From contig NC_006396.1 in the NCBI RefSeq assembly GCF_000011085.1, positions 496,001 through 560,000 on the forward strand: DNA of 64,000 nt, given 5' to 3'. Below are positions 243 to 48,959 of this stretch, piece after piece. Made by a program: the position numbers and the translations under genes. Origin of the DNA: Haloarcula marismortui ATCC 43049 (GTDB taxonomy: Archaea > Halobacteriota > Halobacteria > Halobacteriales > Haloarculaceae). The notes beneath the pieces are model-generated. The model worked only from the letters and a program-made list of their open reading frames with translations, had not been told where the DNA came from and made no database searches. Numbering within the stretch: the stretch's first letter is position 1; every line of letters starts with the position of its first letter.

Positions 243-2939
243 TCACCCGGTGTTTTTCATTCCGGCCGCGATACCCTGAACGGTCAGCCGCAGAGTCCGG
301 CGCTCGGTTTCAGTCCGGTGGGACTGCTTGAGCAGGCGGACCTGCAACAGGTTCAGTGGGTCGACGTACGGGTTCCGGCGCTCCAAGTTCTCCTTGAGCC
401 AGTCCCGCGAGAGCAGGCCGTCCTGCCCGGTGATTTCGAGCACCTTCGCGACGGTGTTCTCGTACTCCTCGACGATACGCGGGTAGATGCGCTCGCGGAG
501 TTCGGGGTCAGCGAGGTCGGCGTACTCCTCGGCGATTCCGAGGTCAGTTCGGGCGAGCGCCAGCGACGCGTTGTCGAGTTTCGTCCGGAAGAACGGCCAG
601 TTCTCGTACATCTCCTGTAAGGTTTCCATGTCGCCGCCATTTTCCAGATAGGCGTCCAGCCCGGTCGAGATCGAGTACCAGCCAGGGATGATACAGCGGG
701 CCTGCGTCCAGGAGAACACCCACGGAATGGCACGGAGGTCCTCGACACTGCGGTCCTCACTTCGGGAAGCCGGCCGCGAGCCCATATTGAGGTTCTCGAT
801 GACGGTGATCGGCGTCGCCTGCTCGAAGAACTCGACGAAGCCGTCGGTCTCAAGCAGGTCCTGATACTCGTCGCGGGCGGCGTCGGCCGCTGTCTCCATC
901 GCCTCCGCCCACTCGTCGGGAATCTCTTCGACGGGCTCCTCGATTGCGTTTTGCCGCGCCCGTATCTGGGCGTTGAGCATCTGTTCGAGGTTCCGCTCGG
1001 CGATGTCGTGGTTGGCGTACTTCTCGGCGATGGCCTCGCCCTGCTCGGTGAACTTGATCTGGCCGGTCACCGTCTCGTTTGGCAGGGCCAGCATGGCGTC
1101 GTTCATCGGGCCGCCGCCGCGGGAGATGGAGCCGCCGCGGCCGTGGAACAGGCGCATCTCCACGTCGTAGTCGTCGGTGATGTCCGCCAGTCGCTTCTGG
1201 TTGTTGTACAGCGACCAGTTGGCGGCGAGGAAGCCGTTCTCTTTGTTCGAGTCGGAGTAGCCAAGCATGATCTCCTGAATGTTGTCCCGGGCTTCCAGCG
1301 CCTGGGAGTAGGCCTCGTTCTCGAACAGCGTGCCCATGATGCGGCGGGCTCCGGAGAGGGCGTACTCCGATTCCAGCAGCGGGACCACGTCGAACCCGCA
1401 GTAGCCGGGCAGGTCGACGATGTCGACCTGGTCAGCGAGGAACAGGACCTCAAGCGCGTGGCTGGGCTCTTCACACCACGAGATAGCGTAGGTGTCGATG
1501 GCGTCGATGCCGAACTCGTTTTGCCAGTCGGCGGTCGCACGGAAGCGGTCGAGGACGCGGGTAGCGTCCTCCGAGAGACCCTCGGTGTCTTCCATGTCGA
1601 TAACGGTGTTATCCTGGAGGATGGCCTCGGTCAGGAACTCGACGCGCTCGTCCTCGTCCATCGACGCGTAGTCGATGCCTTGCCGGTCGACAGCTTCGGC
1701 GATGGCGTCGGTATGCATCTTCCGGTGGTCGCGCAGGTCGAGGCTGGCGAGGGTGAAGCCGAACGTCTCGACCTTGCGGATCAGTGGGTCGACGTGGGCC
1801 TCGGCGATGACCTCGGCGTCATTTTCCCGGAGGCTGTCGGCGATGACGCGGAGGTCGGTCAGCAGTTCTTCCTCGCTCTCGTAGCCGCCTTGGCGGACAT
1901 CGCTGACCCGGATGACGGATTCGCGCATCAGCCGGAGCTTCTGGCGGTAGGGCTCGTCGGGATACCGCTCTTCGGCTTCCTTGGCGACGCCAGGGAGCTT
2001 GGACTTGTGACGGTCCAGTCGCTCGTTGAACAGCGCGTCGGTCGCGATGTTCGAGGCATCCTGACTCAGCACGCCGGAGAGTTCCTTGAGCTTGGTGCGG
2101 TACAGCGGCAGTACAGTCTCGCGCTGGCGCTCCAGCGTCTCCTCGGTCACGTCGGTCGTGACAAACGGGTTGCCGTCGCGGTCGGAGCCGGCCCACGAGC
2201 GGAACTCGTAGAGCGTGTCGATGTCGATGTCCTCGTCGTACACGTCTTCGAGGGTGTGTTCGAGTTCGTCGTACACCTCGTCGATAACGTCGAACAGGAC
2301 GTTTTCGAGGTACCACTGGACGTTCAGCGCTTCGTCGGTGACCTCCGGGCGGCGGTCCCGGACCTGTGGCGTCTGCCAGAGGCTCGTCACCTCGGCGTCG
2401 AGGTTCCGCTCGATGCGCTTCTGTTCGCGTTCGGTGAGTCGCCGCTCGTCGAGTCGTTCGATGTCACGGGCGACCGACCGGAGCTTCGCTTTCACCGTCT
2501 TCCGGCGGGCTTCGGTGGGGTGTGCCGTGAACGTCGGCTGGATGAGAACGTCTTCGAGTACCTGCTCGAACTCCTCCGGGTCAGCTCCGCGTTCGGCCAG
2601 ATCCCGGACGGCTTCCTCGACGCTGTCGGCCAGCACATCCCCCTGACTGCCCTCTCGGATTTCGCGGACCCGTTCGCGTTCCTCAGCGAGATTGATAAGC
2701 TCGAAGTACGTCGTAAACGCGCGTGCGACAATGTCCTGCGTTTCCGGATTCAGTCGGTTCAGCGCCCGGTGGACCTCGTCCCGTGTCTCGGCGTCACCGC
2801 GCCGGTAGTCGATACACGAGTTCCGGATAGTTTCTACCGTGTCAAACGCCTCGGTCGAGGTTTGTGCTTCCAGCACTTCGCCCAGGAGCGCACCCAACTC
2901 CCGTACGTCCTGGTTTATCTCTCTGGCGTGCAAAGTCAT
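243..2939 (-). CDS. ppc: Phosphoenolpyruvate carboxylase
   Basis: An 898-residue bacterial-type PEP carboxylase, which makes oxaloacetate from PEP and bicarbonate in the cytoplasm and so replenishes the TCA cycle. Visible signatures are TAHPTEARRKT near residue 140 (catalytic His), GSDRDGNPFVT near 250, the FHGRGGSISRGGGP loop near 600, GYSDSNKENGF just before it, and a C-terminal end rich in RNPYVDPLNLLQ near residue 855. The length is normal for the family. It stands alone between the stress protein and a divergent regulator. A 671-codon antisense open frame over this gene is a composition artefact. Confidence 0.97.
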   Translation of the reverse strand: MTLHAREINQDVRELGALLGEVLEAQTSTEAFDTVETIRNSCIDYRRGDAETRDEVHRALNRLNPETQDIVARAFTTYFELINLAEERERVREIREGSQGDVLADSVEEAVRDLAERGADPEEFEQVLEDVLIQPTFTAHPTEARRKTVKAKLRSVARDIERLDERRLTEREQKRIERNLDAEVTSLWQTPQVRDRRPEVTDEALNVQWYLENVLFDVIDEVYDELEHTLEDVYDEDIDIDTLYEFRSWAGSDRDGNPFVTTDVTEETLERQRETVLPLYRTKLKELSGVLSQDASNIATDALFNERLDRHKSKLPGVAKEAEERYPDEPYRQKLRLMRESVIRVSDVRQGGYESEEELLTDLRVIADSLRENDAEVIAEAHVDPLIRKVETFGFTLASLDLRDHRKMHTDAIAEAVDRQGIDYASMDEDERVEFLTEAILQDNTVIDMEDTEGLSEDATRVLDRFRATADWQNEFGIDAIDTYAISWCEEPSHALEVLFLADQVDIVDLPGYCGFDVVPLLESEYALSGARRIMGTLFENEAYSQALEARDNIQEIMLGYSDSNKENGFLAANWSLYNNQKRLADITDDYDVEMRLFHGRGGSISRGGGPMNDAMLALPNETVTGQIKFTEQGEAIAEKYANHDIAERNLEQMLNAQIRARQNAIEEPVEEIPDEWAEAMETAADAARDEYQDLLETDGFVEFFEQATPITVIENLNMGSRPASRSEDRSVEDLRAIPWVFSWTQARCIIPGWYSISTGLDAYLENGGDMETLQEMYENWPFFRTKLDNASLALARTDLGIAEEYADLADPELRERIYPRIVEEYENTVAKVLEITGQDGLLSRDWLKENLERRNPYVDPLNLLQVRLLKQSHRTETERRTLRLTVQGIAAGMKNTG

Positions 2940-3055
2940 ACCACTTCATCCAGAACCGAGCCCTAAAACACTATTGAAACGGTGTATCAGGGATAGACGT
3001 TCGTGAAGAACCCGGTTGCGAGAAATAGCTACTATTAATCGTGGGGTTCTTTACC

Positions 3056-3080
3056 GTATCACACGAATTGTTCGTGATAC
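3056..3080. promoter_or_regulatory. Inverted repeat upstream of HTH-10 regulator
   Basis: GTATCAC and GTGATAC form perfect 7-bp arms separated by 11 bp. They end 12 bp before the ATG of the downstream HTH-10 gene. Position and symmetry suggest an operator, possibly for autoregulation. This is inference from the repeat alone. Confidence 0.4.
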
Positions 3081-3092
3081 AGTGGACTGCCA

Positions 3093-3797
3093 ATGATAGA
3101 TATCGCTCTGGACATGGAGCAGTACGACTGCCCCTTCATCGACACGACGGCAGACCACGATGTCGCTTTTGCAGCGGTACACTGGGACTTCGACCAGCGT
3201 GCGCGGGAGTTGGAGACACGGATGGTTGTTGAGGCTGAGGATGCGGGGGTACTCGATACGGGGCTGGACAGCTTGCAGACCCACGAGAACATGAACGACT
3301 GTGTGCTGTTGCGCCGCGAGAACAACGCCGCTCACATCCGGACGACTATCGAGGAAACGGCGGCGATGCAGACCATCAGAGACAACGGCGGCTACATCAC
3401 CGGGCCCTTCCACATTGAGGCAGGCAGCGAGACCTGGCACGTCGGCTTCGACCGTGGCCGAGACGCCGACACGACGCTCTCGGAACTTGACCGTGACAAC
3501 GAGTACGACGTGGTTGAGCGGACGTCGGCGACGCTCCCACAACTGCAGGACCTCGTGCAGAACGCCGGCGCGGCGATGACACTCGTGGACGGCTGTCGGG
3601 ACCTCTCGGACACCGAACGCGAGACGCTGGAAACCGCCGTCTCCGAAGGCTACTTCGAGTCACCCCGGGACGCGACACTGGGGTCGCTGGCCGAGGACTT
3701 CGGCGTGTCCAAACCCGCCGTCTCGAAGAACCTCCGGCGCGGCGAGCGCAAGATGATCGAACGCGTCGTCGAAGCGCTTGATGACATCGAGGACTGA
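3093..3797 (+). CDS. HTH-10 (Bat-type) transcriptional regulator
   Basis: A 234-residue haloarchaeal regulator. Residues 1-165 form a sensor-like alpha/beta region. The C-terminal 55 residues are the HTH-10 domain: LSDTERETLETAVSEGYF, then a PRDATLGSLAEDFGVSK recognition helix region and a basic RRGERKM segment. It is clearly paralogous to the regulator at 59360-60064, which has the same length and the same YDCP(F/Y)IDTT start and ends. Both sit next to branched-chain-type ABC importer operons, so control of that transport is a reasonable guess. An inverted repeat lies just upstream. The ligand is unknown. Confidence 0.85.
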   Translation: MIDIALDMEQYDCPFIDTTADHDVAFAAVHWDFDQRARELETRMVVEAEDAGVLDTGLDSLQTHENMNDCVLLRRENNAAHIRTTIEETAAMQTIRDNGGYITGPFHIEAGSETWHVGFDRGRDADTTLSELDRDNEYDVVERTSATLPQLQDLVQNAGAAMTLVDGCRDLSDTERETLETAVSEGYFESPRDATLGSLAEDFGVSKPAVSKNLRRGERKMIERVVEALDDIED

Positions 3798-4183
3798 GTT
3801 CGGTGTTCCCGCCGGCCTGTTCGCTACTCTGTCCAGAATGACAGCTAGGTGCAATTGTCACAACGGCCGTACCTAGCTCCCACTGTAGGCCTTAGCGTTG
3901 TTTTACTGCATAACTGACACTCGTGAGAGCGACATCAATACAAGACAACACCGATTGTGTGGGCTGAGATATGAATCAGCAAATGCCGGTCAAACGAATC
4001 CTGAACTGTCCGCATATCTGTGCTGCTGGGTGGTGACCGCTGGTTCCACCCAGACGGATAGAGTAAGGGTTACTTCCATGCATGATTCCGAGATTGAGAC
4101 CTGCTTAAATCATATTCCCACGGCCGGACGCAATACGAGTGCAAAGGAGGGGACCGGTCAAATAAATATTTCGACCAAAGATA
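3798..4183. other. Intergenic region without a recognisable gene
   Basis: About 390 bp between the HTH-10 gene and a small membrane protein gene. It has lower GC than the neighbours and several short open frames without a credible start or codon bias. Nothing beyond the promoter at its right end could be recognised. Confidence 0.5.
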
Positions 4184-4191
4184 TTTTTATA
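4184..4191 (+). promoter_or_regulatory. TATA box for small membrane protein gene
   Basis: TTTTTATA is centred about 26 bp before the ATG at 4214. That spacing fits a leaderless haloarchaeal transcript. Confidence 0.5.
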
Positions 4192-4213
4192 CAAAAGCAA
4201 AGACAACATAATC

Positions 4214-4546
4214 ATGACTGCTGAAGAAGACGAATCATCATCTAGAAGAGCCATACCGGCTCTTGAGATGCTTTTCAAAACGGTATTCGGGTTGCTCTTG
4301 CGAATCATACTCGCACCGTACCGTCGGCTCGCAAGGCGGTTGCTTGTTGGAGTTATCCTGATACCAGTTGCCGTATTCCTCGGCGTGTTCATTTTTGCGG
4401 GGTTTGCGGGAGGAATGGAACTGTTTGACTTCCTCGGTGTGAACCGTCAGATTGGGTTTCTGATTTCAATCACCGTCGGAATGACCTTGCCGTGGGTGGT
4501 CATCCTCGGTATCCTGCATCGATACACTGACCACGAAATTCTCTAA
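4214..4546 (+). CDS. Small membrane protein, unknown function
   Basis: A 110-residue protein with a charged N-terminus (acidic residues 2-9), a basic amphipathic stretch around residues 30-47, and two clear hydrophobic segments (about 48-67 and 79-102). No family was recognised. A TATA box at leaderless spacing supports the ATG at 4214. It stands alone between the HTH-10 gene and the ABC importer, on the same strand as both. The function cannot be read from sequence. Confidence 0.6.
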   Translation: MTAEEDESSSRRAIPALEMLFKTVFGLLLRIILAPYRRLARRLLVGVILIPVAVFLGVFIFAGFAGGMELFDFLGVNRQIGFLISITVGMTLPWVVILGILHRYTDHEIL

Positions 4547-4872
4547 CTACCCGCAATGCGACTGGGACAGCGAATAGCGGCGTATTTTCGTCCGAACTCT
4601 GGTCGGGTTGATAAACAGTTCTCTGATGGACCTTTGTCGCAGGTATCTACTCCATTTCGTCTGACACACAGTTCGTGGTGGCCCTTGGACTGGGACTCTC
4701 TATTATTCCCCCGTTACTAACGTGGGTGACCGCTGAGATATACCGGGCAACAGTCGCTGAAGCAGCTACGTAGCAGATAGTCAAATCGGTGTGAGAGGAC
4801 AGTACGCAAGCGAGGGGCGAGATAGGCCGTCTACCGCCATTTTGTACCAATCCCGGTCCGGACGAGAACTGC
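4547..4872. other. Intergenic region upstream of ABC importer operon
   Basis: No credible gene. Short frames on both strands lack a ribosome binding site and haloarchaeal codon bias. The right end leads into a palindrome and TATA box for the transporter operon. Confidence 0.45.
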
Positions 4873-4886
4873 GTTAACATGTTAAC
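4873..4886. promoter_or_regulatory. Perfect 14-bp palindrome, probable operator
   Basis: GTTAACATGTTAAC reads the same on both strands. It ends about 9 bp before the TATA-like ACTATAT (4894-4900), itself at leaderless spacing from the solute-binding-protein start at 4927. A symmetric site over the BRE/TATA region is what a dimeric regulator would bind. The regulator could be the HTH-10 protein at 3093-3797, but that is inference. Confidence 0.55.
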
Positions 4887-4926
4887 TCAGAACACTATAT
4901 GGTCGGCGAGTCTACAATAATCTGTT

Positions 4927-6339
4927 ATGCAGAATACGGCTACACGGAGGCGCGTTCTCGGCGCGCTCGGTGCTGGCGTTGTCGGGCTCAGCGGCTGTGT
5001 CAGTGACGACTCATCCATGACTGAACAGGACGATTCGGACGGCGGGACGACGGACAGTAGCACGAACGGCGAATCGGGCGGCAGTGGTTCGGCACAGACC
5101 GTTAGTATCGGGGTCCTTCAGCCCCGCGCTGGTGACCTGAAGTACTACGGCGACCAGTCGCTGTGGGGGTTCCTCTCCGGGCTGGCGTACAAGGGTGATA
5201 CCGATCCGCCGACAGACCCCGGCAGCGGCGAGGTTACGATCACCGCCGGTGACACGGAGTATCGCCTGCTAATTCGGGACACGGAGTTCTCGGCGGACAC
5301 GGCACAGACGGCAGCGACGAACCTCGTCGAGAACGAAGACGTAGACATGCTCGCCGGCTGTGCGTCCTCGGCGGTCGCCAGCCGGGTCGTCACGACGGTC
5401 GTCAATCAGGCGCAGGTCCCCATCATGCTCGGTCCGGCGGCGTCGGCCGACATCACGTCCAACTCCGAGACCTGTAGCGACCTCGTCTACCGAGCGAGCG
5501 AGAACACCGCGATGGACGCCCGCTCGGGCGGGAAGTACGTCGCCAGAGAGACGGACGTATCGAGCGTCTATCTGTTCGGCGCGGACTACAGTTTCGGCCG
5601 CGCGGTCGTCAACAACTACCGGGACGTGCTGGAGGCCGAAGGCGTCGATATCGTCGGCGAACGCTTCGTCGAACAGGGCTACGCCGAGTGGGATGGGCTG
5701 CTTGACAACGCCGAGGAGGCCGGGGCCGAAGGCGTCGTCGGCGGGTTCACCGTTGCGACGCTTCCGGCGATGTTCAACGCCTTCCTCTCCGGTGAGTACT
5801 CCTATCGGGTGTTCGGCGGGTTCGCCACCAGAATCACCAACAGCGTCGTCGGTGGGACGATGCAGAGCGTGCTCGGCGAGCCCCTGACAGCGGAGAAGAT
5901 CAGGGACTCACAGCTCGGGCCGTTCACGACTCGCTACCACTGGAACCAGTACGACAACCCGATCAACGACGCGTTCGTCGAGAGCTACACCAACGCCTAC
6001 GGCGTCGTCCCGGACCTCTTCACGGCCGGGACGTTCACGGGCGCGTCGGCGATCCACCAGGCCGTCCAGGAGAGCGGGTCGACCGAGGGCGCGGACATCG
6101 CCGACGCCCTGAAGGGGATGACCGTCACCGACACGCCGAAAGGCGAGAACGGCTACACCTTCCAGGAGTACAACAACCAGGCACAGTCGGCGATGACCGT
6201 CGCGAACCCGATTCCGACGACCGACGAGTGGGCCGACAACTGGGGGGCCGCCATCATGCCCGGCGAACCGCTAGCCCGAATCAGTGCCGACGAGACGACT
6301 ATCCCACAGGATAGCGACCAGATGGACTGTTCACTGTAG
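4927..6339 (+). CDS. Branched-chain-amino-acid-type ABC transporter, substrate-binding lipoprotein
   Basis: A 470-residue periplasmic-binding protein of the Leu/Ile/Val-urea-amide class (type I fold). The N-terminus is a Tat signal with lipobox (TRRRVLGALG, then LSGC), so it is exported folded and anchored at Cys24. An acidic Ser/Gly linker covers about residues 27-58. The binding domain starts at TVSIGVLQPRAGDLKYYG and includes the typical middle segment VYLFGADYSFGRAVVNNYRD. It is first in a tightly spaced operon with two ATPases and two permeases. The substrate cannot be told from sequence: amino acids, amides, urea or aromatic acids are all known for this family. Confidence 0.9.
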   Translation: MQNTATRRRVLGALGAGVVGLSGCVSDDSSMTEQDDSDGGTTDSSTNGESGGSGSAQTVSIGVLQPRAGDLKYYGDQSLWGFLSGLAYKGDTDPPTDPGSGEVTITAGDTEYRLLIRDTEFSADTAQTAATNLVENEDVDMLAGCASSAVASRVVTTVVNQAQVPIMLGPAASADITSNSETCSDLVYRASENTAMDARSGGKYVARETDVSSVYLFGADYSFGRAVVNNYRDVLEAEGVDIVGERFVEQGYAEWDGLLDNAEEAGAEGVVGGFTVATLPAMFNAFLSGEYSYRVFGGFATRITNSVVGGTMQSVLGEPLTAEKIRDSQLGPFTTRYHWNQYDNPINDAFVESYTNAYGVVPDLFTAGTFTGASAIHQAVQESGSTEGADIADALKGMTVTDTPKGENGYTFQEYNNQAQSAMTVANPIPTTDEWADNWGAAIMPGEPLARISADETTIPQDSDQMDCSL

Positions 6340-11135: not shown

Positions 11136-12771
11136 ACTCGGCCCCGGTACCCCACAAAAGTGGGTCGGTGCCTGGAGCGAGCGCCGGGCCGCGCTCACGC
11201 CGGACCGCGAGGGATTGGTGGATGCGACCACCGGCGAGCGGTTCACGTACGCCGAACTGGACCGGCGAGCGAACCGGACCGCTCGCCTGCTTCGGCGGTA
11301 CGGCGTCGGCGACAGTGGTGAGTCTACCGGTACTGTCGCCGTCGTCTCGCGGAACCGCCCAGCTGTCGTCGACCTGTTCTTCGCCTCCGCCAAGACCGGG
11401 AGCCGACTGGCTCCGCTGTCCCACCGGCTTGCGCCCCCGGAACTCGCCGAACTCCTCGACCGCGTGGACCCGGAACTCCTCGTTGTCGAGGCTTCCTCCG
11501 CCGAGACTGTCTCGACTGCTCTGGAGACAGCCGATACGGCGGCTCCCCAGCTTATCCATCTCGGAACCGCCGCCGACAGCGCGTCCTCGGCTGCCACGCT
11601 CGACAGCACGCCCTACGCTTCGGCCCTCCCCGAGGACGACACACCCGTCGAGACAGCAACGCCGGCCCCCAGCGACACACATCTCCTCCTGCACACCGGT
11701 GGGTCGACTGGAACGCCAAAGGAGACGGAACTAACCCACCGCGGCATCGTCTGGAACTCTCTGAATACGATTACGGCCTGGGGACTGCGCGAGGACGACG
11801 TGACGCCGATGGTGTTTCCGATGTTTCACACCGGTGGCTGGAACGTTCTCACCGTCCCCCTGTGGCACATGGGCGGGACAGTGGTCATCGCCCGTGCGTT
11901 TGACCCTAGCGACGTACTGGAGATCATCGACTCGGAGGGCGGGACCGTCCTTGTCGCCGTCCCGGCAATCCTGCGGATGATGGCGAACCACGACCGCTGG
12001 GCGGAGACGGACCTCTCGTCGCTCCGCTTCGCCAAATCCGGCGGCGGCCCCTGTCGCAAAAGCGTGATGGAGACGTGGTGGGACCGGGGCGTCGACCTCT
12101 CACAGGGGTACGGCCTCACCGAGTGCGGGCCGAACAACTTCGCGATGCCCGAGGACTGGCCCCACGAGAAGGCTGATTCCGTCGGTAAGCCGGTGCTACA
12201 CGTCGACGCCAGAGTCGTCGAACCCGAAGATAGCGACGACGAAGGCAGCCCTGCCGGTTCACGGGACCCGGTCGACCCCGGCACCGTTGGCGAACTCCAG
12301 TTGCGCTCGCCCCACGCCGCGGCGGGCTACCTCGACAATCCGGACGCGACCGCCGAGACATTTGGCGACGGCTGGGTGTCGACCGGCGACCTCGCCCGCG
12401 TCGACGCGGACGGCTACTACTACATCGAGGGCCGCACCAAGCACATGTTCGTCAGCGGCGGCGAGAACGTCTTTCCCCCGGAGGTCGAGGACGCTATCGC
12501 CGACCATCCCATGGTCGGTGAAGTCGTCGTGATTCCGGTCCCCGACGACAGATGGGGGCAGGTCGGAAAGGCTGTCATCGAGCCCGCATCCACTGCTGTG
12601 ACCGACGGGGCTAGCGATCGACCGCTGACGCTTGACGACCTCCGAACGTTCCTCGACGACCGCCTGGCACGGTACAAACACCCCCACGATATCGCGTTCG
12701 TCGAGGCGATGCCGACCAGCGGCCCAGACAAGATTGATCGGGGTGCAGTTTCAGACCGCTTCGGTGCGTAA
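11128..12771 (+). CDS. Acyl-CoA ligase (AMP-forming)
   Basis: A 547-residue adenylate-forming enzyme. It activates a carboxylic acid with ATP and joins it to CoA. The P-loop is LLLHTGGSTGTPKE near residue 190, with YGLTECGPNNF near 330, STGDLARVDADGYYYIEGR near 415, a FVSGGENVFPPEVED hinge, and the C-terminal catalytic Lys in GPDKIDR. The length and motifs fit medium/long-chain or aromatic acid ligases. It overlaps the hydrolase gene by 8 bp and follows the ABC importer operon, which suggests that an imported acid is activated here. The substrate is inferred only by class. Confidence 0.88.
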   Translation: MSELGPGTPQKWVGAWSERRAALTPDREGLVDATTGERFTYAELDRRANRTARLLRRYGVGDSGESTGTVAVVSRNRPAVVDLFFASAKTGSRLAPLSHRLAPPELAELLDRVDPELLVVEASSAETVSTALETADTAAPQLIHLGTAADSASSAATLDSTPYASALPEDDTPVETATPAPSDTHLLLHTGGSTGTPKETELTHRGIVWNSLNTITAWGLREDDVTPMVFPMFHTGGWNVLTVPLWHMGGTVVIARAFDPSDVLEIIDSEGGTVLVAVPAILRMMANHDRWAETDLSSLRFAKSGGGPCRKSVMETWWDRGVDLSQGYGLTECGPNNFAMPEDWPHEKADSVGKPVLHVDARVVEPEDSDDEGSPAGSRDPVDPGTVGELQLRSPHAAAGYLDNPDATAETFGDGWVSTGDLARVDADGYYYIEGRTKHMFVSGGENVFPPEVEDAIADHPMVGEVVVIPVPDDRWGQVGKAVIEPASTAVTDGASDRPLTLDDLRTFLDDRLARYKHPHDIAFVEAMPTSGPDKIDRGAVSDRFGA

Positions 12772-12801
12772 TGTATCACTGCAGGCGTAGCTTCAAGAGG
12801 G

Positions 12802-14697
12802 ATGATGAATTTCTATTTACACAATATGTCTGACACATATGCGGCTGCGAATTCGATGCACGTGTTGCAGGTAGACGACAGGCCGCTACTCGACGAGACT
12901 GTCGAGTTCCCGGATAGTCGGGGCCCGGACTCGCTGACGCTGACGACGACCGACCGGGCAGACAGTGCGCTCGACCGTCTCGAAGGCACCGCTATCGATG
13001 GCATCGTTGCCGCCGACAACCTCCCGGACCGGTCCGGCCGTGAATTCGCTGAGATAGTCCGCGAGCGGGACAGTAATGTCCCGGTGTTGCTACTGACCGA
13101 GCCGGAATCCGTCGCCAGCGACGCAATCTCGAACGGGGTTACCGACGTTTTCAGAAGAGATACAGCTGTTGCCCGTCGCGACCTTCTCGCCAATCGGATT
13201 CGGTTACTCGTCGAACATCACCGGTCGACAGAACTCGCGAGTCGGACTAGACAGCAACTCACAGAACTGGCAGAACAGTCGAGCGAACTGCTGTGGGTGT
13301 TCTCCGGGGACTGGACCGAGATACAGTTCGTCAATTCGGCATACGAAACGCTCTACGGCCGCTCCGTCGAGTCGTTGCAGACCAGCCCCGATGAGTTCAT
13401 GACAGCGATTCATCCCACGGATCAGGATAGAGTCATCCAGTCGATGCAGCGCGTCTCAGCCGGAGAATCCGTCGAACTCGAATTCCAAATCACCAGACCG
13501 GATGGCGAACAGCGCTGGGTGCGAGCCAAGGCACAGCCCATTGTTGAAGATGGCACGGTCGCCAGAATCGTCGGTGCCTCGCGTGACATCACCGAACGGA
13601 AGCGATGCGAGTCCGAACATATTGCAGAAATAGACCGCCCTGACGCACCGGTCGATGCAGTGCCGGATCTGTTCTATGAACTCGATGAGAACGGCGAGCT
13701 GGCTCGCTGGAACGATGCACTGGCGGCAGCCACCGGATATACAGACGCTGATCTCGGGCCGATGTCGCTGACAGCACTCTTCGCCCCATCAGATCGTGAA
13801 ACCGTTCGACAGGGCATCGAGACGGCTTTTTCGACCGGTGAAACGTCGTTCGAGGCCGATCTGCTAACCGCCGATGGCACGACAGTGCCGTACGAATTCA
13901 CCGGGGGCCGGATAACAGCTGCTGACGGCTCGCCGCTCGGCGTGGTCGGTATCGGACGGGATATCTCCGCCCGCGAAAGCCGCCAACAGGCGCTTGAACA
14001 GCAAAACAAGCGCCTCGGAGAGTTTGCCAGCGTCGTCAGTCACGACCTCCGGAACCCGCTGGACGTTGCCCGGGGCCAGCTAGAACTCGCACAGATTGAG
14101 CACGATAGCGACCACCTCGACGCGGTCAAGCGAGCCCACGGCCGTATCGGACAGCTCATCGATGACCTCCTGACGCTGGCCCAGAACGGCGAGACAGCGC
14201 TCGACAGCGAGCCGGTGCCGCTCCAGACAGTCGTCGAGCAGTGCTGGCAAACTGTCGAGACCGGCGACACGACACTGGAACTACAGACCTCGACCGTGGT
14301 GCGGGCGGACCCAAGCCGGCTCCGGCAACTCTTCGGGAACCTGATCCGCAACAGCGTGGAACACGGACAGACGCCACACACCGAGAGACAAGACGACGCC
14401 GGCGAACAGCGTGCGACGACCTCTCTCTCACAGTCGCAGAGACCAGCCGCTGACCTGACGCTTACTGTTGGCGAACTGGACGACGGCTTCTACGTCGCGG
14501 ACGACGGCGTTGGGATTCCGGCCGGCGAGCGCGACACTGTGTTTGAGGGTGGCTACTCGCTGGCGTCGGGTCCCGGTTTTGGCCTCAGAATCGTCGATGA
14601 GATCGTCGATACCCACGGCTGGTCGATAACGGTCACAGAAAGCGACGCCGGCGGTGCTCGCTTCGAGATCACCGGCGTCGAGTTCGAGACGGCGTAA
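12802..14697 (+). CDS. PAS-domain sensor histidine kinase
   Basis: A 631-residue, apparently soluble kinase. Residues about 20-130 resemble a degenerate receiver domain (HVLQVDD start, IDGIVAADNLPDRSG at the phospho-Asp strand, where the site is altered). Two PAS domains follow (about 150-270, ending RDITERKR, and 285-395, ending GRDISARES). Then comes HisKA with the phospho-His in VVSHDLRNPLDVARG and HATPase with NLIRNSVEHG, DDGVGIPAGERD and GPGFGLRIVDEIV. No transmembrane segment is visible. ATGs at 12802, 12805 and 12826 are all possible starts. No partner response regulator is adjacent. Confidence 0.88.
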   Translation: MMNFYLHNMSDTYAAANSMHVLQVDDRPLLDETVEFPDSRGPDSLTLTTTDRADSALDRLEGTAIDGIVAADNLPDRSGREFAEIVRERDSNVPVLLLTEPESVASDAISNGVTDVFRRDTAVARRDLLANRIRLLVEHHRSTELASRTRQQLTELAEQSSELLWVFSGDWTEIQFVNSAYETLYGRSVESLQTSPDEFMTAIHPTDQDRVIQSMQRVSAGESVELEFQITRPDGEQRWVRAKAQPIVEDGTVARIVGASRDITERKRCESEHIAEIDRPDAPVDAVPDLFYELDENGELARWNDALAAATGYTDADLGPMSLTALFAPSDRETVRQGIETAFSTGETSFEADLLTADGTTVPYEFTGGRITAADGSPLGVVGIGRDISARESRQQALEQQNKRLGEFASVVSHDLRNPLDVARGQLELAQIEHDSDHLDAVKRAHGRIGQLIDDLLTLAQNGETALDSEPVPLQTVVEQCWQTVETGDTTLELQTSTVVRADPSRLRQLFGNLIRNSVEHGQTPHTERQDDAGEQRATTSLSQSQRPAADLTLTVGELDDGFYVADDGVGIPAGERDTVFEGGYSLASGPGFGLRIVDEIVDTHGWSITVTESDAGGARFEITGVEFETA

Positions 14698-43731: not shown

Positions 43732-44955
43732 TCAGGTCGCTTCGTCACGTCGCTCCTCGGAAAGCTGTCGCCGCCACTGTGGTGTTTCGAGGAGGAGTCG
43801 GAGCGGCCAGATGACGTAGTACAGCGGGTGCATCGGGCCGGGAAGCGGGCAAAACTGGTACTCCGAGTAGGTCGGGTGAAGTGACGAATGCAACAGTAGG
43901 AGCGGTACCAGCGCAGTCATCGAATCGCTGGCCGCCAGGTAAAATCGAGCGGCCTCAAACTGCGTGGGTGCCTGTGGCGTCCCAGCGGCCAGCGACTCAA
44001 CGACGGCCTCAGCTAATTCGGAGATGCGGCCGTCCGTGCGAAGGCGGTCCAGGAGCGGCGCTGGGAGGGCGTATCCGAAGACAGCACGGGCGAGCGCGGC
44101 CCCGAGTAATAGGTTCCGCTCAACGCCGGTTTCCCGCGCCCGAACGAGGACGTGTGGCCAGTCGGTTTCCGCTGCCTCCAGTGCCGCAACGAAATCACAG
44201 AGCCACTTCAGGAGATACCAGCGGTGCTTGGTGCCATGGAACGCTAATACGAGTAGCCGATCTGGCTGTGCAAGCGCCGGAAGCGGTTGGCCGCCGACCG
44301 ATACGGTGTCGCGGCGGTCCCAGAGTTCACCGAAGGATGTGGAGAACGGTCGCTCGGCATCGCCAACGCGCCAGCGAAGTTCCACGTCGAACTCCGGACC
44401 GCGCATTTCGTACTCGTGAACGATAGCCTTCGTCACAGGACCGCCTAACAGCGCGGCATCATCCAACCGCGGCGTGCCCCCGCGCCACTCGTATCCTCGC
44501 TCTTCGAGAATATCCGCAGCGGCGGGGATATCTTCCGGATGGACGAGCAGATCCAGGTCATTATATTCACGCACCGTTGCGTCGTCGTAAGCAGCGGCGG
44601 ACAGCGCCGGTCCCTTGAACGGTACCGCACGCACACCACGTGTCTCGAAGCGTTCTAGTATCTCCTGTAGCTCGGTCGTGAACGCGAGATTCCGCATCCG
44701 TTTTCCCTGTACGATGCTGCTAAGTCGGGTCAACACGGCCGCCGGCACGGTGAACTCATCACCACTCTCGCGTGCCATTGCTTCCAGTCCCTCGTAGAGG
44801 AGTTGCACGATGCCGTGATACCGGGCGAGTGCAACGACACGGTCCCAGTCTGGCGCGTCATCAAGCGGGGGCGGGTCGGGAGCGGCGTCGGTGACGATCG
44901 CGGTACGAGCACAGTCGACCACCACCTGAAGTTCGGGTTCAGCCTCCGTCAGCAT
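43732..44955 (-). CDS. Nucleotidyltransferase-fold tailoring enzyme of RiPP locus
   Basis: A 407-residue protein of the uncharacterised nucleotidyltransferase family (PF14907-like). VRAVPFKGPALSAAAYDD then REYNDLDLLVHPEDI (near 125-140) supplies the DxD metal site. WRGGTPRLDDAALL and VDVELRWRVGDAERPF-type segments follow. Such a gene is known beside HPr-kinase-like kinases in phosphorylated lasso peptide clusters (paeninodin/pseudomycoidin type). It overlaps the kinase gene by 7 bp. It probably modifies the peptide or its phosphate; donor and product are unknown. Confidence 0.78.
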   Translation of the reverse strand: MLTEAEPELQVVVDCARTAIVTDAAPDPPPLDDAPDWDRVVALARYHGIVQLLYEGLEAMARESGDEFTVPAAVLTRLSSIVQGKRMRNLAFTTELQEILERFETRGVRAVPFKGPALSAAAYDDATVREYNDLDLLVHPEDIPAAADILEERGYEWRGGTPRLDDAALLGGPVTKAIVHEYEMRGPEFDVELRWRVGDAERPFSTSFGELWDRRDTVSVGGQPLPALAQPDRLLVLAFHGTKHRWYLLKWLCDFVAALEAAETDWPHVLVRARETGVERNLLLGAALARAVFGYALPAPLLDRLRTDGRISELAEAVVESLAAGTPQAPTQFEAARFYLAASDSMTALVPLLLLHSSLHPTYSEYQFCPLPGPMHPLYYVIWPLRLLLETPQWRRQLSEERRDEAT

Positions 44956-45863
44956 GACTCACTCTTGAGCTCAGACTGAACTCGGGCTGCGACATCCGGA
45001 AGCATATCGAGAGTGCGCGGCCGGCGGAGCCGTTTTATTTCGGTCATATCGACAATCTCACCGCAGGCAGTGAAGTTGGACACGGCCTGGCCGTCGGCCT
45101 CCAGCGCGCCCAGCGTGTACGTATTATCCACGAGCGCCATGACCTGCTTGTCCGGCCTGACTGCGTCCACCTCGATTGTCTCGCCGTCTTCGAGCAGGTA
45201 AATCCGTTCTAGCGGCACCGGGGTTGCGGGCTGGTCGTGCCTGAGTCCGTAGAAGTGTCGAGGGCGTCCGCTGTGGACCTGTTCCGGCGGTTCGACCGGA
45301 GGGTCAAATGCTTCAACTGCCTCCGGATCGAGTTTCATCGACGGGTAGCCGCTCCGGACGACCGGCCCCGCATCGTCCAGCGCTATCGCAGCCACGTCGT
45401 CGCTCAGGATACGATGTCCGTCGAGCAGGCAGGCCATCGCAGTCGTCGTTTTTCCGACCCCCGACTCTCCGACGAAGGCAACTGCACGCCCGTCGATACT
45501 GACGGTACTGGCGTGCAGCACGAAGTAGCCCCGTTGATCCAGCAGGTGGTTCAACGCCGGGCCGACCAGTACGTGGCGGAGGACTTCGCTTGGCACGTCC
45601 GGAGCCGGGTCTACAGCGATGGATTTACCGTCGAGAATTCTGACCGTTGCGGCGTCGTATAGAAGGTAGTATTCGCGCTCGGTTACCGCGTGAAAGGTCG
45701 ACCCGGACGCAGCAGACAGAGGGCGAGGAATCCGTTCCTCAGTGATGGTGACATCAGCCCGCCCGCCAGGCGCTGTCTCAGCGGACGGAAGCTCTGGTAC
45801 GTCGAAGGCCGAGCGGACTGTCAGTCCAAAGGCTTCGTACGTGGCTGTGTTCGCCGTCGCCAT
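44949..45863 (-). CDS. HPr-kinase-like peptide kinase of RiPP locus
   Basis: A 304-residue protein. Walker A is FVGESGVGKTTTA near residue 129, then HRILSDDVAAIAL, SGYPSMKLDPEAVEAF and a C-terminal lid. This is the HprK-related kinase type (PadeK/ThcoK) that phosphorylates the C-terminal Ser of lasso precursors. The precursor in this locus ends with Ser. ATG at 45863 is preferred; one at 45905 is also in frame. It is coupled to the nucleotidyltransferase gene. No HPr or PTS gene is nearby, which argues against classic HPr kinase. Confidence 0.82.
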   Translation of the reverse strand: MATANTATYEAFGLTVRSAFDVPELPSAETAPGGRADVTITEERIPRPLSAASGSTFHAVTEREYYLLYDAATVRILDGKSIAVDPAPDVPSEVLRHVLVGPALNHLLDQRGYFVLHASTVSIDGRAVAFVGESGVGKTTTAMACLLDGHRILSDDVAAIALDDAGPVVRSGYPSMKLDPEAVEAFDPPVEPPEQVHSGRPRHFYGLRHDQPATPVPLERIYLLEDGETIEVDAVRPDKQVMALVDNTYTLGALEADGQAVSNFTACGEIVDMTEIKRLRRPRTLDMLPDVAARVQSELKSESC

Positions 45864-46096
45864 CCTGCTAGTTTCCCCCTTGCGTAGTTGTCCATCTATT
45901 CCGTCCATCCTGAAACACACCCCATCTACGACACCCCTGATTCATACCAGAGCGCTTGACTGCTGTGGTGGATAAGAATGCGCTCTCTACTTCCATCACA
46001 CAGCCACGAAACCATCGCGATGTATCCACTGCACGGTGCCAGTGTCGAGGACCGATAAAAGAGGGATCAGTTAGATGTGTGAACCGGCTGTGGACG

Positions 46097-46195
46097 TTAA
46101 CTCCACTTCCCGTATCCGTCGTCGTGGTCCCACCAGTTCGTCTTCTCTTCAACAGTTCCGTACGTTTCGACCGACGGCGTTTCGTATTCCTTCAT
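46097..46195 (-). CDS. RiPP precursor peptide, lasso-type leader (32 residues)
   Basis: ATG at 46195 has a perfect GGAGGT 5 bp upstream and a TATA at 46236-46245. The 32-residue product has Y4, P7, V9, G13 and T19 at the exact spacing of the lasso leader motif YxxPx(L/V)x3Gx5T. The predicted core begins at residue 21: WWDHDDGYGKWS, ending in Ser, the residue used by HprK-like peptide kinases. The core has no Asp or Glu at positions 7-9, so a lasso ring cannot form by the usual rule. It lies between the B2 and kinase genes on their strand. Confidence 0.8.
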   Translation of the reverse strand: MKEYETPSVETYGTVEEKTNWWDHDDGYGKWS

Positions 46196-46200
46196 TGGTT

Positions 46201-46206
46201 ACCTCC
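46201..46206 (-). promoter_or_regulatory. Strong ribosome binding site of the precursor gene
   Basis: GGAGGT on the minus strand, 5 bp before the ATG at 46195. Most starts in this window are leaderless or coupled; a full-strength site here supports high translation of the peptide. Confidence 0.7.
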
Positions 46207-46235
46207 ACGCCTGCTTTCAGATATCATTGTATTTG

Positions 46236-46245
46236 TTATATTATC
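46236..46245 (-). promoter_or_regulatory. TATA box of the precursor gene
   Basis: GATAATATAA on the minus strand within an AT-rich 60-bp stretch. It predicts a transcript start near 46213-46220 with a short leader containing the GGAGGT site. Confidence 0.45.
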
Positions 46246-46287
46246 TATTACTCTTGAATTTCCACAGAATGTGGTGTTTACTATCTG

Positions 46288-46752
46288 TTAGCCACGTACT
46301 TCGCGTTCCGTGAGTGCTCGGAAACGCCCAAAGTCGTCGACATCCCCGATAAGGACATCACCGTTTGACTCGACCCAAGCATGAGCCTCGAACGTATCGG
46401 ACTGTGTATCCACACCGAAGCGGAGACAATGTGGGAAGTCACTCGCCTCCAGCAAGGTACTCCCGGTGAGTGCTCGCTCAAGACAATCGTAAGTGCCCGG
46501 AAGACGCGACCCTGCTGTTAAAACCGCCCAGCGTACTGACTTCGGTGCTTCAGGCTGACGATGACACGGGAGGAACTGAGAGACCGTGCCGAAACAGCGC
46601 TCTGCGTCCTCCAGCCCAACGACTGTAAGCAGTACTTTGCTCGCAACGATCAGTGCCACTGCTTCACAGAGTAATAGCTTCTGCGCCCGTGACAACGCCC
46701 TGAACTCACGGAATCGGGCTCGCATCGACCTTGATGAGTTGCTCCGCGGCAA
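46288..46752 (-). CDS. Lasso-type B2 leader peptidase (transglutaminase-like)
   Basis: A 154-residue cysteine protease of the lasso B2 family. Catalytic residues are Cys90 in GTYDCLERALTGSTLLEAS, His124 in FEAHAWVESNGD, and a following Asp (132). The N-terminal helix RAQKLLLCEAVALIVASKVLL is common in this family. It would cut the leader between residues 20 and 21 of the precursor. It overlaps the B1 gene by 47 bp from ATG 46752, or by 20 bp from ATG 46725. Confidence 0.85.
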   Translation of the reverse strand: MPRSNSSRSMRARFREFRALSRAQKLLLCEAVALIVASKVLLTVVGLEDAERCFGTVSQFLPCHRQPEAPKSVRWAVLTAGSRLPGTYDCLERALTGSTLLEASDFPHCLRFGVDTQSDTFEAHAWVESNGDVLIGDVDDFGRFRALTEREVRG

Positions 46753-47002
46753 GCGTTTTCAGAAAGCGTTCCACATCATTTGCCACTCGGTCTCTCTCGA
46801 CATCGTACTCCCCGACCAGCGCCGAGACGATGTCCACTGGCTCAGTCGGTTCCTGAATTCGCTCCCAGATATCCGGGCCGACCCCTGACAGGCCCTGATA
46901 CCGCCCCGTCTCGTTGTTGAGCAACACGATCTCCCCGTCGATAGTCGTAGTGACACAGTCGTCAGTTGCGACAACAGCCGACTCGAAATCTATCGCGACC
47001 AT
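46706..47002 (-). CDS. Lasso-type B1 RiPP recognition element (PqqD-like)
   Basis: A 98-residue PqqD-like domain: TIDGEIVLLNNETGRYQGLSG near residue 20, then PDIWERIQEP and VSALVGEYDVERDRVANDVE followed by FLKTLAAEQLI. The fold holds the leader peptide and presents it to B2. It is encoded separately from B2, the split arrangement of Gram-positive and archaeal clusters. It is the first gene of the minus-strand half, divergent from the exporter. Confidence 0.85.
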   Translation of the reverse strand: MVAIDFESAVVATDDCVTTTIDGEIVLLNNETGRYQGLSGVGPDIWERIQEPTEPVDIVSALVGEYDVERDRVANDVERFLKTLAAEQLIKVDASPIP

Positions 47003-47083
47003 GTGGCTATCGGCGATACTCGTACTATTTGTTATAGCCTCTTTTCGCCCCCGTGGTAACTCTGACTGCCGTTAGACGTGCCC

Positions 47084-47099
47084 TTCGTTCCAGAACGAA
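47084..47099. promoter_or_regulatory. Inverted repeat in divergent RiPP promoter region
   Basis: TTCGTTC-CA-GAACGAA: perfect 7-bp arms, 2-bp centre, 52 bp before the exporter start and 82 bp before the B1 start. The placement between divergent operons suggests an operator controlling both. Confidence 0.5.
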
Positions 47100-47150
47100 C
47101 CGACCGTAGTAAGTCGGTAACTATGCCCCATAGAAACCGCATGCCGAACA

Positions 47151-48959
47151 ATGGCTGCTACTCCTTCCGTCAGTGAAAAATACGCATCGTTGCGCCGCGT
47201 GGCGCTGTATCGGCCGGCGCTGACGGGGAGTATCGTTGCCGCCAGCCTCTTTGTAATGCTACTCGAAGGTGTTGGCCTCTCGTTCCTGTTTCCGATACTC
47301 GACGCCGCACAGGCCGGGCAGAGCCTTCCGCTTCAGGCAAACGGCGTCACCGGCCGGTTTCTTTCCGTGTACGTCGCTGCAGGGCTGCCGGTCACACTCG
47401 AATTCCTGTTGGTCGGCCTCGCGTGCGTGATGGTCATCCGGTTTACGGCGTCGTTTGCGGTGAAATGGCTCGCAGCAAAACTCACACAGACGTACGAGCG
47501 TGACCTCAAAGACCGGGCCTACGAACTGGCGATGGGCGCATCAGTCGCCTACTACGACGACAAGGGGTCCGACGACATCATGAACACGATTCTGACACAG
47601 ACCCGCTACGCCGGGCGTGTCATCGGCCGGATTATCCAGTTCTTCCAGCAGGCAATCCTCTGTCTGGTGTATATCGGGATCGCACTCGCTATCGCTCCGG
47701 TGCTGGCAGTCGGTGCAGCTGTCGCTCTCGGCGGTGTCACGGCGATCATCAGATACGGCATCGAGCCCGGGTACGCCGTTGGCGACCGTGTGGCGACGGC
47801 AAACGAACAGCTACAGGAGACAACACAGGCGGGGACGCAAGGTATCCGTGACGTGAAGCTGTTTGGTATGCGCGACGGGCTGCTTGCCGAGTTCCGGTCC
47901 ACACTCGACCGGTACACTTCGACTAGCGTCGCCGTTCGCCGGAACCAGGTTGCAATCGGAAGCCTCTATCGGCTCTCGGTCTCGCTGCTCCTGTTTGGCC
48001 TTGTCTACGTCGCCATCAGTTTCCGGGCGCTGTCTATCGCGGAACTCGGCGTGTTCCTGTTCGCGATGCTCCGACTCGCCCCCCGGCTGAGTTCGCTCAG
48101 CTCCACCATCTACGCGATCGAGGGAGAACTCCCACATCTGGTCCGAACTCACCAGTTCATCGACCGCCTCGAAGCCCAGCAGGAACCAACTGGCGGGCAG
48201 TCGGTCCCGGACAGCATTGAGGAAATCGCGTTCGAGAACGTCTCGTTCGCCTACGAGGACGAGCCAGTGCTTGCGGACTTTTCGATGGCCGTCGACCGAG
48301 GGGAGTTCGTCGGCATCGTCGGCAAGTCCGGCGGCGGCAAATCGACAGTCGTCTCACTGCTCACGCGACTCTATACCCCGGATAGCGGTGAGGTTCTGGC
48401 GAACGGGACGCCAATTTCGGCCTATGCGCTTGAGGAATGGCGTGAGGCTGTTGCGATGGTTCGACAGGACCCGCATATCTTCAACGATACGCTGCGGTAC
48501 AATCTCACTGCCGGTCGGGATATCACCGAGGAAACGCTCTATGAAGTCGCTGAGAAGGCACTCATCCTCGAATTCCTTGACGACCTTCCGCAGGGACTCG
48601 ACACGGTACTGGGCGACGACGGCGTGAAACTGTCCGGCGGGCAGCGCCAGCGCGTCGCACTAGCTCGCGCGCTTCTGGCCGATGCGGAGGTACTCGTGCT
48701 TGATGAGGCCACCAGCGACCTCGACTCGAATCTGGAACAGCAAATCCATCGAACCGTTGAGACGCTTGACGGGGACCAGACTGTGATCGCGATCGCCCAC
48801 CGACTCTCGACGGTTTCAAACGCCGACCGGATATACACTGTTGAGGACGGGCAGGTCACAGAGCGAGGCAGCCACGCCGAGCTGCTCAACGACAACGGGA
48901 CGTACGCGGAGCTGTACGCGATGCAGGGAACGGCAGCCGCACAGTCTTCCAGTGGCTAA
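47151..48959 (+). CDS. ABC exporter (permease-ATPase fusion) of RiPP locus
   Basis: A 602-residue half-transporter. Six membrane segments occupy about 20-320. The ATPase has Walker A VGKSGGGKST near 393, a Q-loop in VAMVRQDPHIFND, signature LSGGQRQRVALARALL near 498, Walker B VLVLDEATSDLD, and AHRLST. This is the MsbA/lasso-D type that exports mature peptide and often gives immunity. It is divergent from B1 across a 148-bp region with an inverted repeat. Confidence 0.88.
   Translation: MAATPSVSEKYASLRRVALYRPALTGSIVAASLFVMLLEGVGLSFLFPILDAAQAGQSLPLQANGVTGRFLSVYVAAGLPVTLEFLLVGLACVMVIRFTASFAVKWLAAKLTQTYERDLKDRAYELAMGASVAYYDDKGSDDIMNTILTQTRYAGRVIGRIIQFFQQAILCLVYIGIALAIAPVLAVGAAVALGGVTAIIRYGIEPGYAVGDRVATANEQLQETTQAGTQGIRDVKLFGMRDGLLAEFRSTLDRYTSTSVAVRRNQVAIGSLYRLSVSLLLFGLVYVAISFRALSIAELGVFLFAMLRLAPRLSSLSSTIYAIEGELPHLVRTHQFIDRLEAQQEPTGGQSVPDSIEEIAFENVSFAYEDEPVLADFSMAVDRGEFVGIVGKSGGGKSTVVSLLTRLYTPDSGEVLANGTPISAYALEEWREAVAMVRQDPHIFNDTLRYNLTAGRDITEETLYEVAEKALILEFLDDLPQGLDTVLGDDGVKLSGGQRQRVALARALLADAEVLVLDEATSDLDSNLEQQIHRTVETLDGDQTVIAIAHRLSTVSNADRIYTVEDGQVTERGSHAELLNDNGTYAELYAMQGTAAAQSSSG

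Follow-up and report, generated by a model that had tools for sequence, protein, structure and literature searches.

The 64,000-nucleotide stretch of the Haloarcula marismortui ATCC 43049 genome analysed here (contig NC_006396.1, positions 496,001 to 560,000; hereafter the window, in whose numbering the features of the locus are given) contains at 43732-48959 a compact locus that, in the reading we favour with good if incomplete confidence, encodes a functional pathway for a ribosomally synthesized and post-translationally modified peptide (RiPP), derived from lasso-peptide machinery, devoid of a macrolactam cyclase and giving rise to a short, probably linear, tailored and exported product. 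The minus strand carries, in this order, the genes of a leader-recognition element (RRE; B1), a leader peptidase (B2), the precursor peptide (A), an HprK-like kinase (K) and a nucleotidyltransferase (NT), and an ATP-binding cassette (ABC) exporter (D) is encoded divergently on the plus strand. An earlier note on this DNA had listed the same six genes and proposed a RiPP locus with lasso-type machinery and no lasso cyclase; every gene was located at the position it had given, and sequence profiles, predicted folds and a genome-wide cyclase search agree with the overall assignment. At the level of genes the locus looks like that of a RiPP, in that a short precursor gene stands with an RRE and modifying enzymes, is co-inherited with them and is conserved.

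The precursor gene (46097-46195, minus strand) encodes 32 residues, MKEYETPSVETYGTVEEKTNWWDHDDGYGKWS, and is preceded by GGAGGT at 46201-46206. In a search of 32 Haloarcula genomes it was present in exactly the 11 that bear the locus, and it is identical letter for letter in nine of these 11 species, the remaining two showing a single exchange of the C-terminal Ser for Asp (G055, locus L037) and a 30-residue form with one core Asp fewer and a C-terminal Asp (G184, locus L043); the five enzymes differ from those of the window in 4-20% of residues among Haloarcula species, and in more in G184. Furthermore, over the ten species that align without gaps, the changes are synonymous at seven of the eight variable precursor codons (p = 7e-5). 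Because of this bias, and because the open reading frame (ORF) occurs precisely where the locus does, we conclude that it is a real gene; it is under purifying selection. A 94-residue ORF at 45868-46152 was also considered as the precursor and rejected, as it has no family match and the conserved frame is that of the 32-residue ORF.

The leader of this precursor (YxxPxVxxxG.....T) carries the lasso-type signature YxxPx[LIV]xxxG together with the penultimate Thr, and the leader motif is retained by all cyclase-less precursors of the clade described below. Cleavage, placed by analogy after Thr19-Asn20, would leave a core of 12 residues, WWDHDDGYGKWS, with no ring-acceptor Asp or Glu at positions 7-9. 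Counted after Thr-x, cores span 8-17 residues in cyclase-less loci versus 22-32 in cyclase-containing ones, two ranges that do not overlap and whose difference, computed over a set that leaves aside the L065 and L097 precursors, has a p value (3.6e-8) that ignores relatedness.

The enzymes are assigned by profile, structure and active-site residues. B2 (46288-46752, minus strand), a transglutaminase-like peptidase whose start is probably ATG 46725 rather than TTG 46752, scores 85.4 bits against NF033537, the NCBIfam lasso B2 model (cut-off 33), and 63 bits against PF13471; its active-site Cys and His are invariant over 15 aligned loci, and a search by sequence against solved structures gave no match of note. 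The PqqD-type B1 (46706-47002, minus strand) reaches 66.6 bits against PF05402 (cut-off 23.4) and 68.9 bits against NF033536, under the 80-bit cut-off of the latter, and among solved structures its best match is TbiB1, a lasso protein (5v1u, E 2e-15). K (44949-45863, minus strand), whose probable start is ATG 45863, the longer form from GTG 45920 being unlikely, matches the HPr-kinase P-loop profile only weakly (28.2 bits versus a Pfam gathering score of 33.3), but its AlphaFold model adopts the HPrK/PEPCK fold (Z 18.2, rmsd 4.1 over 268 residues), and the His-Lys-Asp-Asp residues named as essential in lasso kinases (PMC9266682) do not vary among 11 aligned loci (H117, K138, D155 and D156 in the 304-residue form). 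The families to which the earlier note had assigned these three proteins are thus borne out by profile for B1 and B2, and by fold and motif for K. NT (43732-44955, minus strand) matches PF14907 at 221.8 bits (cut-off 31.2); no solved structure was matched by sequence, and its model is that of a pol-beta nucleotidyltransferase with a KGP...DxD motif, the nearest folds being ANT(2'') (Z 12.9) and also LnuA and FKRP. PsmN of the pseudomycoidin pathway is presumably itself a PF14907 member. Finally, D (47151-48959, plus strand) is identified by profile matches to a transmembrane and a nucleotide-binding domain. The active-site motifs of K, NT and B2 are intact in all 18 cyclase-less loci.

No cyclase lies in or near the locus, as had been noted earlier, and its absence extends genome-wide: the lasso cyclase model NF033535 (cut-off 525 bits) has no match in the whole H. 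marismortui genome, and PF00733 has three, which we name, from a reading of their sequences in context, a 390-residue AsnB-like protein, LarE and argininosuccinate synthase. The AsnB-like protein has no amidotransferase domain and stays below every curated cut-off tried, and matches of its type are also present in Haloarcula genomes without the locus. None of the 17 other genomes with cyclase-less loci exceeds the NF033535 cut-off, whereas each of the five controls, genomes that hold a haloarchaeal lasso cluster, does (588 bits for the cyclase of L055, 586 bits for that of L047), and across Haloarcula no lasso cyclase was found to accompany the locus.

It had been claimed that this gene set always includes a cyclase. 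This is nearly so outside the haloarchaea, where 14 of the 15 loci that combine K with B1 and B2 contain an AsnB-type gene (one of them from a methanogen), as do all six annotated plasmid K loci, two further plasmid K matches (an unannotated stretch and a fragment) having been left out; it does not hold for L097, the one exception among the 15, nor for the haloarchaeal clade. An alignment scan with K gave mostly bacteria among the matches listed. L097 itself (1074-5643) belongs to a metagenome-assembled genome (MAG) of Competibacteraceae and is a bacterial cyclase-less case in the order B2-A-K-B1-D-NT, with a His-rich core, GGRLPHHPIFNPWGHGHGHGHGHSGS, that holds a His-Gly repeat and no acidic residue; its contig begins 0.6 kb upstream of B2. 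A Methanobacteriaceae MAG, by comparison, has a full lasso-type set of B1, B2, C, K, D and NT (L098).

Of the 391 genomes sampled in the class Halobacteria, 33 contain B2. One more member of Haloarcula, G395, bears a cluster with a cyclase in place of the present locus, and cyclase-less loci with precursors extend beyond the genus to G036, G436, G317, G461, G322 (two loci) and G390. In the K tree a single clade joins 11 of the 12 cyclase-less rows (98/93), L065 of G390 lying outside; in the NT tree the cyclase-less core clade (100/99) is adjoined by L061 and L062 (87/72); and in a tree of concatenated B1 and B2 a cyclase-less clade (93/88) separates from the remaining haloarchaeal rows (92/83), among which L065 lies. 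Six near-identical Haloarcula rows are omitted from these trees. The cyclase-less loci make up a single deep clade of haloarchaea that spans several family-level groups with distinct cores, for which one old loss or early split, plus the separate cases of G390 and L097, is the simplest reading, the trees being unable to tell gain from loss. The earlier note had anticipated neither this monophyletic lineage with short precursors of its own nor the near invariance of the precursor within Haloarcula.

Several haloarchaeal loci show features of their own. L114 (G440), a B1-B2 pair tallied with the cyclase-containing rows and with no recognisable precursor, falls in the cyclase-less clade of the B1 and B2 tree. 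L061 (14926-18629, G322) encodes six short precursors with near-identical leaders (YExPTLETYGR) and divergent 8-12-residue cores, mostly with a GSEP-like motif, while L065 (9418-13764), the cyclase-less locus outside the main clade, has poly-Gly or Gly-Lys-rich cores and a second kinase gene in fragments. L045 (9489-11229, G002) holds B1, B2 and NT without K, and its nearest AsnB-type gene stands about 20 kb off among polysaccharide genes. The haloarchaeal lasso loci L053, L063 and L064 have two or three kinase genes, one of which in each case lies in the K tree next to the cyclase-less clade, and L053 and L063 encode two cyclases each.

As to the product, the earlier description of a leader-cleaved, Ser-tailored, exported peptide that is not a lasso remains the best reading in all but its Ser. 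A C-terminal core Ser, the residue targeted by the paeninodin kinase (PMC9266682), is found in nine of the 11 Haloarcula species, H. marismortui included, and is replaced by Asp in G055 and G184; moreover, Ser and Thr are both absent from seven of the 16 cores (those of G055, G184, G436, G317 and G461), and 15 of the 16 contain Tyr. Since cores without Ser or Thr coexist with a kinase motif that is intact in 18 of 18 loci, tailoring of Ser is doubtful, and core composition makes Tyr the more likely acceptor in the cyclase-less clade, with Ser possible where present; a leader Thr or a carboxylate could conceivably serve as well.

We therefore propose a pathway modelled on the characterised lasso enzymes. 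B1, judging from its family and the leader motif, would bind the YxxPxVxxxG leader of the 32-residue precursor; K would phosphorylate a core hydroxyl, that of the Tyr in DDGYG and/or of the C-terminal Ser; NT would place a nucleotidyl or sugar-type group on that phosphate, as proposed for PsmK and PsmN in pseudomycoidin; B2 would then cut after Thr19-Asn20 to give a linear peptide of roughly 12 residues, and D would export it. From the near invariance of the core we speculate that its physiological role is fixed, the peptide acting perhaps as an extracellular signal or as a ligand of metal or envelope, and less likely as a diversifying toxin. We also entertain, as a possibility in which our confidence is low, that the haloarchaeal loci represent an ancient separate RiPP class of short linear exported peptides, phosphorylated on a core Tyr rather than on Ser and capped by an enzyme of nucleotidyltransferase fold, one of these peptides being kept near-invariant throughout a genus as a signal or as a metal or envelope ligand; the His-rich counterpart in bacteria, L097, may have arisen separately.

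A number of observations weigh against a linear, exported, lasso-derived peptide. The comparison of core lengths draws on related sequences, so that its p value overstates independence, and the cleavage site after Thr19-Asn20 is a prediction by analogy. In the cores of G036 and G436, position 7 or 9 is an Asp with a possible tail behind it, so that by sequence alone ring competence is conceivable there, and the G436 locus (L112) holds an AsnB gene, albeit one that is split between frames (11215-13105, minus strand) and is a generic asparagine synthase, not a lasso cyclase. Nor is D universal, as no exporter gene stands within 10 kb of the cyclase-less locus L060, and none was seen on the stretch of the L115 contig that was read. 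Finally, linearity is deduced solely from the fact that no known cyclase is present, and another enzyme could crosslink the core.

The alternative that survives best is that the encoded enzymes form a ring or crosslink other than a lasso, for example by NT-catalysed nucleotidylation of a carboxylate followed by attack of Lys10 or of the N-terminus. We regard this as unlikely, if worth keeping in mind: the core does hold conserved Asp residues and Lys10, and NT, a pol-beta nucleotidyltransferase by fold, is present in every cyclase-less locus with a precursor, but PF14907 proteins occur in cyclase-containing loci too, the G317 and G461 cores have no Lys, and the link of PsmN to hexosylation of phosphoserine (PMC9266682) counts against an NT-driven cyclisation. 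Quite improbable, given that no further modifying enzyme is common to the cyclase-less loci, that an exporter is present and that cores differ strongly between genera, is a role of the precursor as scaffold for a small molecule similar to pyrroloquinoline quinone (PQQ), in which a core residue, once modified, is cut out to serve as a cofactor, even though the very short, Tyr-containing and strongly conserved core and the PqqD-type chaperone speak for it. We give very little weight to a decaying lasso cluster that has lost its cyclase and is drifting: the locus is found in just 11 of 32 Haloarcula genomes, as such decay might leave it, but the precursor is strictly conserved, the catalytic motifs are intact in every cyclase-less locus, and the clade is deep and extends over several family-level groups with distinct cores. 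That a lasso peptide is made after all, through the distant cyclase that the earlier note had allowed for, is barely tenable, for although most other locus-bearing Haloarcula have full-length AsnB genes elsewhere, these reach at most 186 bits against the 525 of the NF033535 cut-off, the model has no match in H. marismortui, G055, G036, G440 or G461, the 390-residue AsnB-like protein is not tied to the locus and the H. marismortui core has no acceptor at 7-9, so that an AsnB-type enzyme is ruled out for H. marismortui and the idea is refuted there unless a cyclase unrelated to AsnB exists. In view of the cyclase-less clade, the short cores and the near-invariant precursor, the locus is not a lasso cluster whose cyclase is still to be found, and it is not a relic.

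Both minus-strand units of the locus are preceded by the same 11-mer, TATAACAAATA, at 46230-46240 upstream of A and at 47026-47036 upstream of B1 (both minus strand); the 4.27-Mb genome holds four copies, two of them here, and most of the other Haloarcula species have CATAACAAATA or an altered form ahead of B1. The 11-mer is a probable promoter element shared by the A and B1 units. Between A and K, a non-coding block of about 40 nucleotides (45941-45980, minus strand) is conserved in 10 of 11 Haloarcula amid variable surroundings and may represent a promoter or leader of K-NT. A 25-residue ORF that begins in this block is open in the species read by eye and was rejected as a gene for its many non-synonymous changes.

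Among known systems, the phosphorylated or glycosylated lasso peptides paeninodin and pseudomycoidin share with the locus B1, B2, an HprK-like kinase with the His-Lys-Asp-Asp residues, a nucleotidyltransferase, an ABC exporter, the YxxPx[LV]xxxG...T leader and, for nine of the 11 Haloarcula species, the C-terminal Ser; in contrast, H. marismortui has no AsnB-type cyclase, its 12-residue core lacks the ring acceptor and the acceptor Ser is not conserved. Haloarchaeal lasso clusters (L055, L047 and L057) have related B1, B2, K, NT and D and the same leader motif, but encode a cyclase and the longer cores of 22-32 residues. The HPr-rel-A system (TIGR04352/TIGR04353) likewise pairs an HprK-related kinase with a PqqD-like protein; the locus is not a member, however, with K at 36.3 bits versus a cut-off of 200 and B1 at 13 versus 35. 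In Haloarcula hispanica Boch-4, antiSMASH had flagged B1, B2 and a kinase as an RRE-dependent RiPP cluster (PMC10093198), which is probably the same locus; the portion of that report drawn on here gives no description of a precursor, of a missing cyclase, or of how the locus is distributed and has evolved. Lassopeptide clusters are known in archaea (PMC12144867), and the corresponding portion of that source describes neither the precursor nor the missing cyclase. A literature search, with most subscription journals and all bioRxiv preprints outside its scope, found no lasso-type loci without a cyclase.

The existence of these loci suggests that the recognition, cleavage, kinase and nucleotidyltransferase modules of lasso pathways can work as a unit without cyclisation, so that the roles of K and NT can be tested on a peptide of 12 residues in an archaeon whose genome is sequenced and which can be cultured. 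The cyclase is usually regarded as the defining enzyme of lasso clusters, and cyclase-based mining would therefore miss this group. To our knowledge, few molecules are known in archaeal chemical signalling, and if our reading is true, the near-invariant exported peptide of Haloarcula would be a strong candidate for an archaeal chemical signal.

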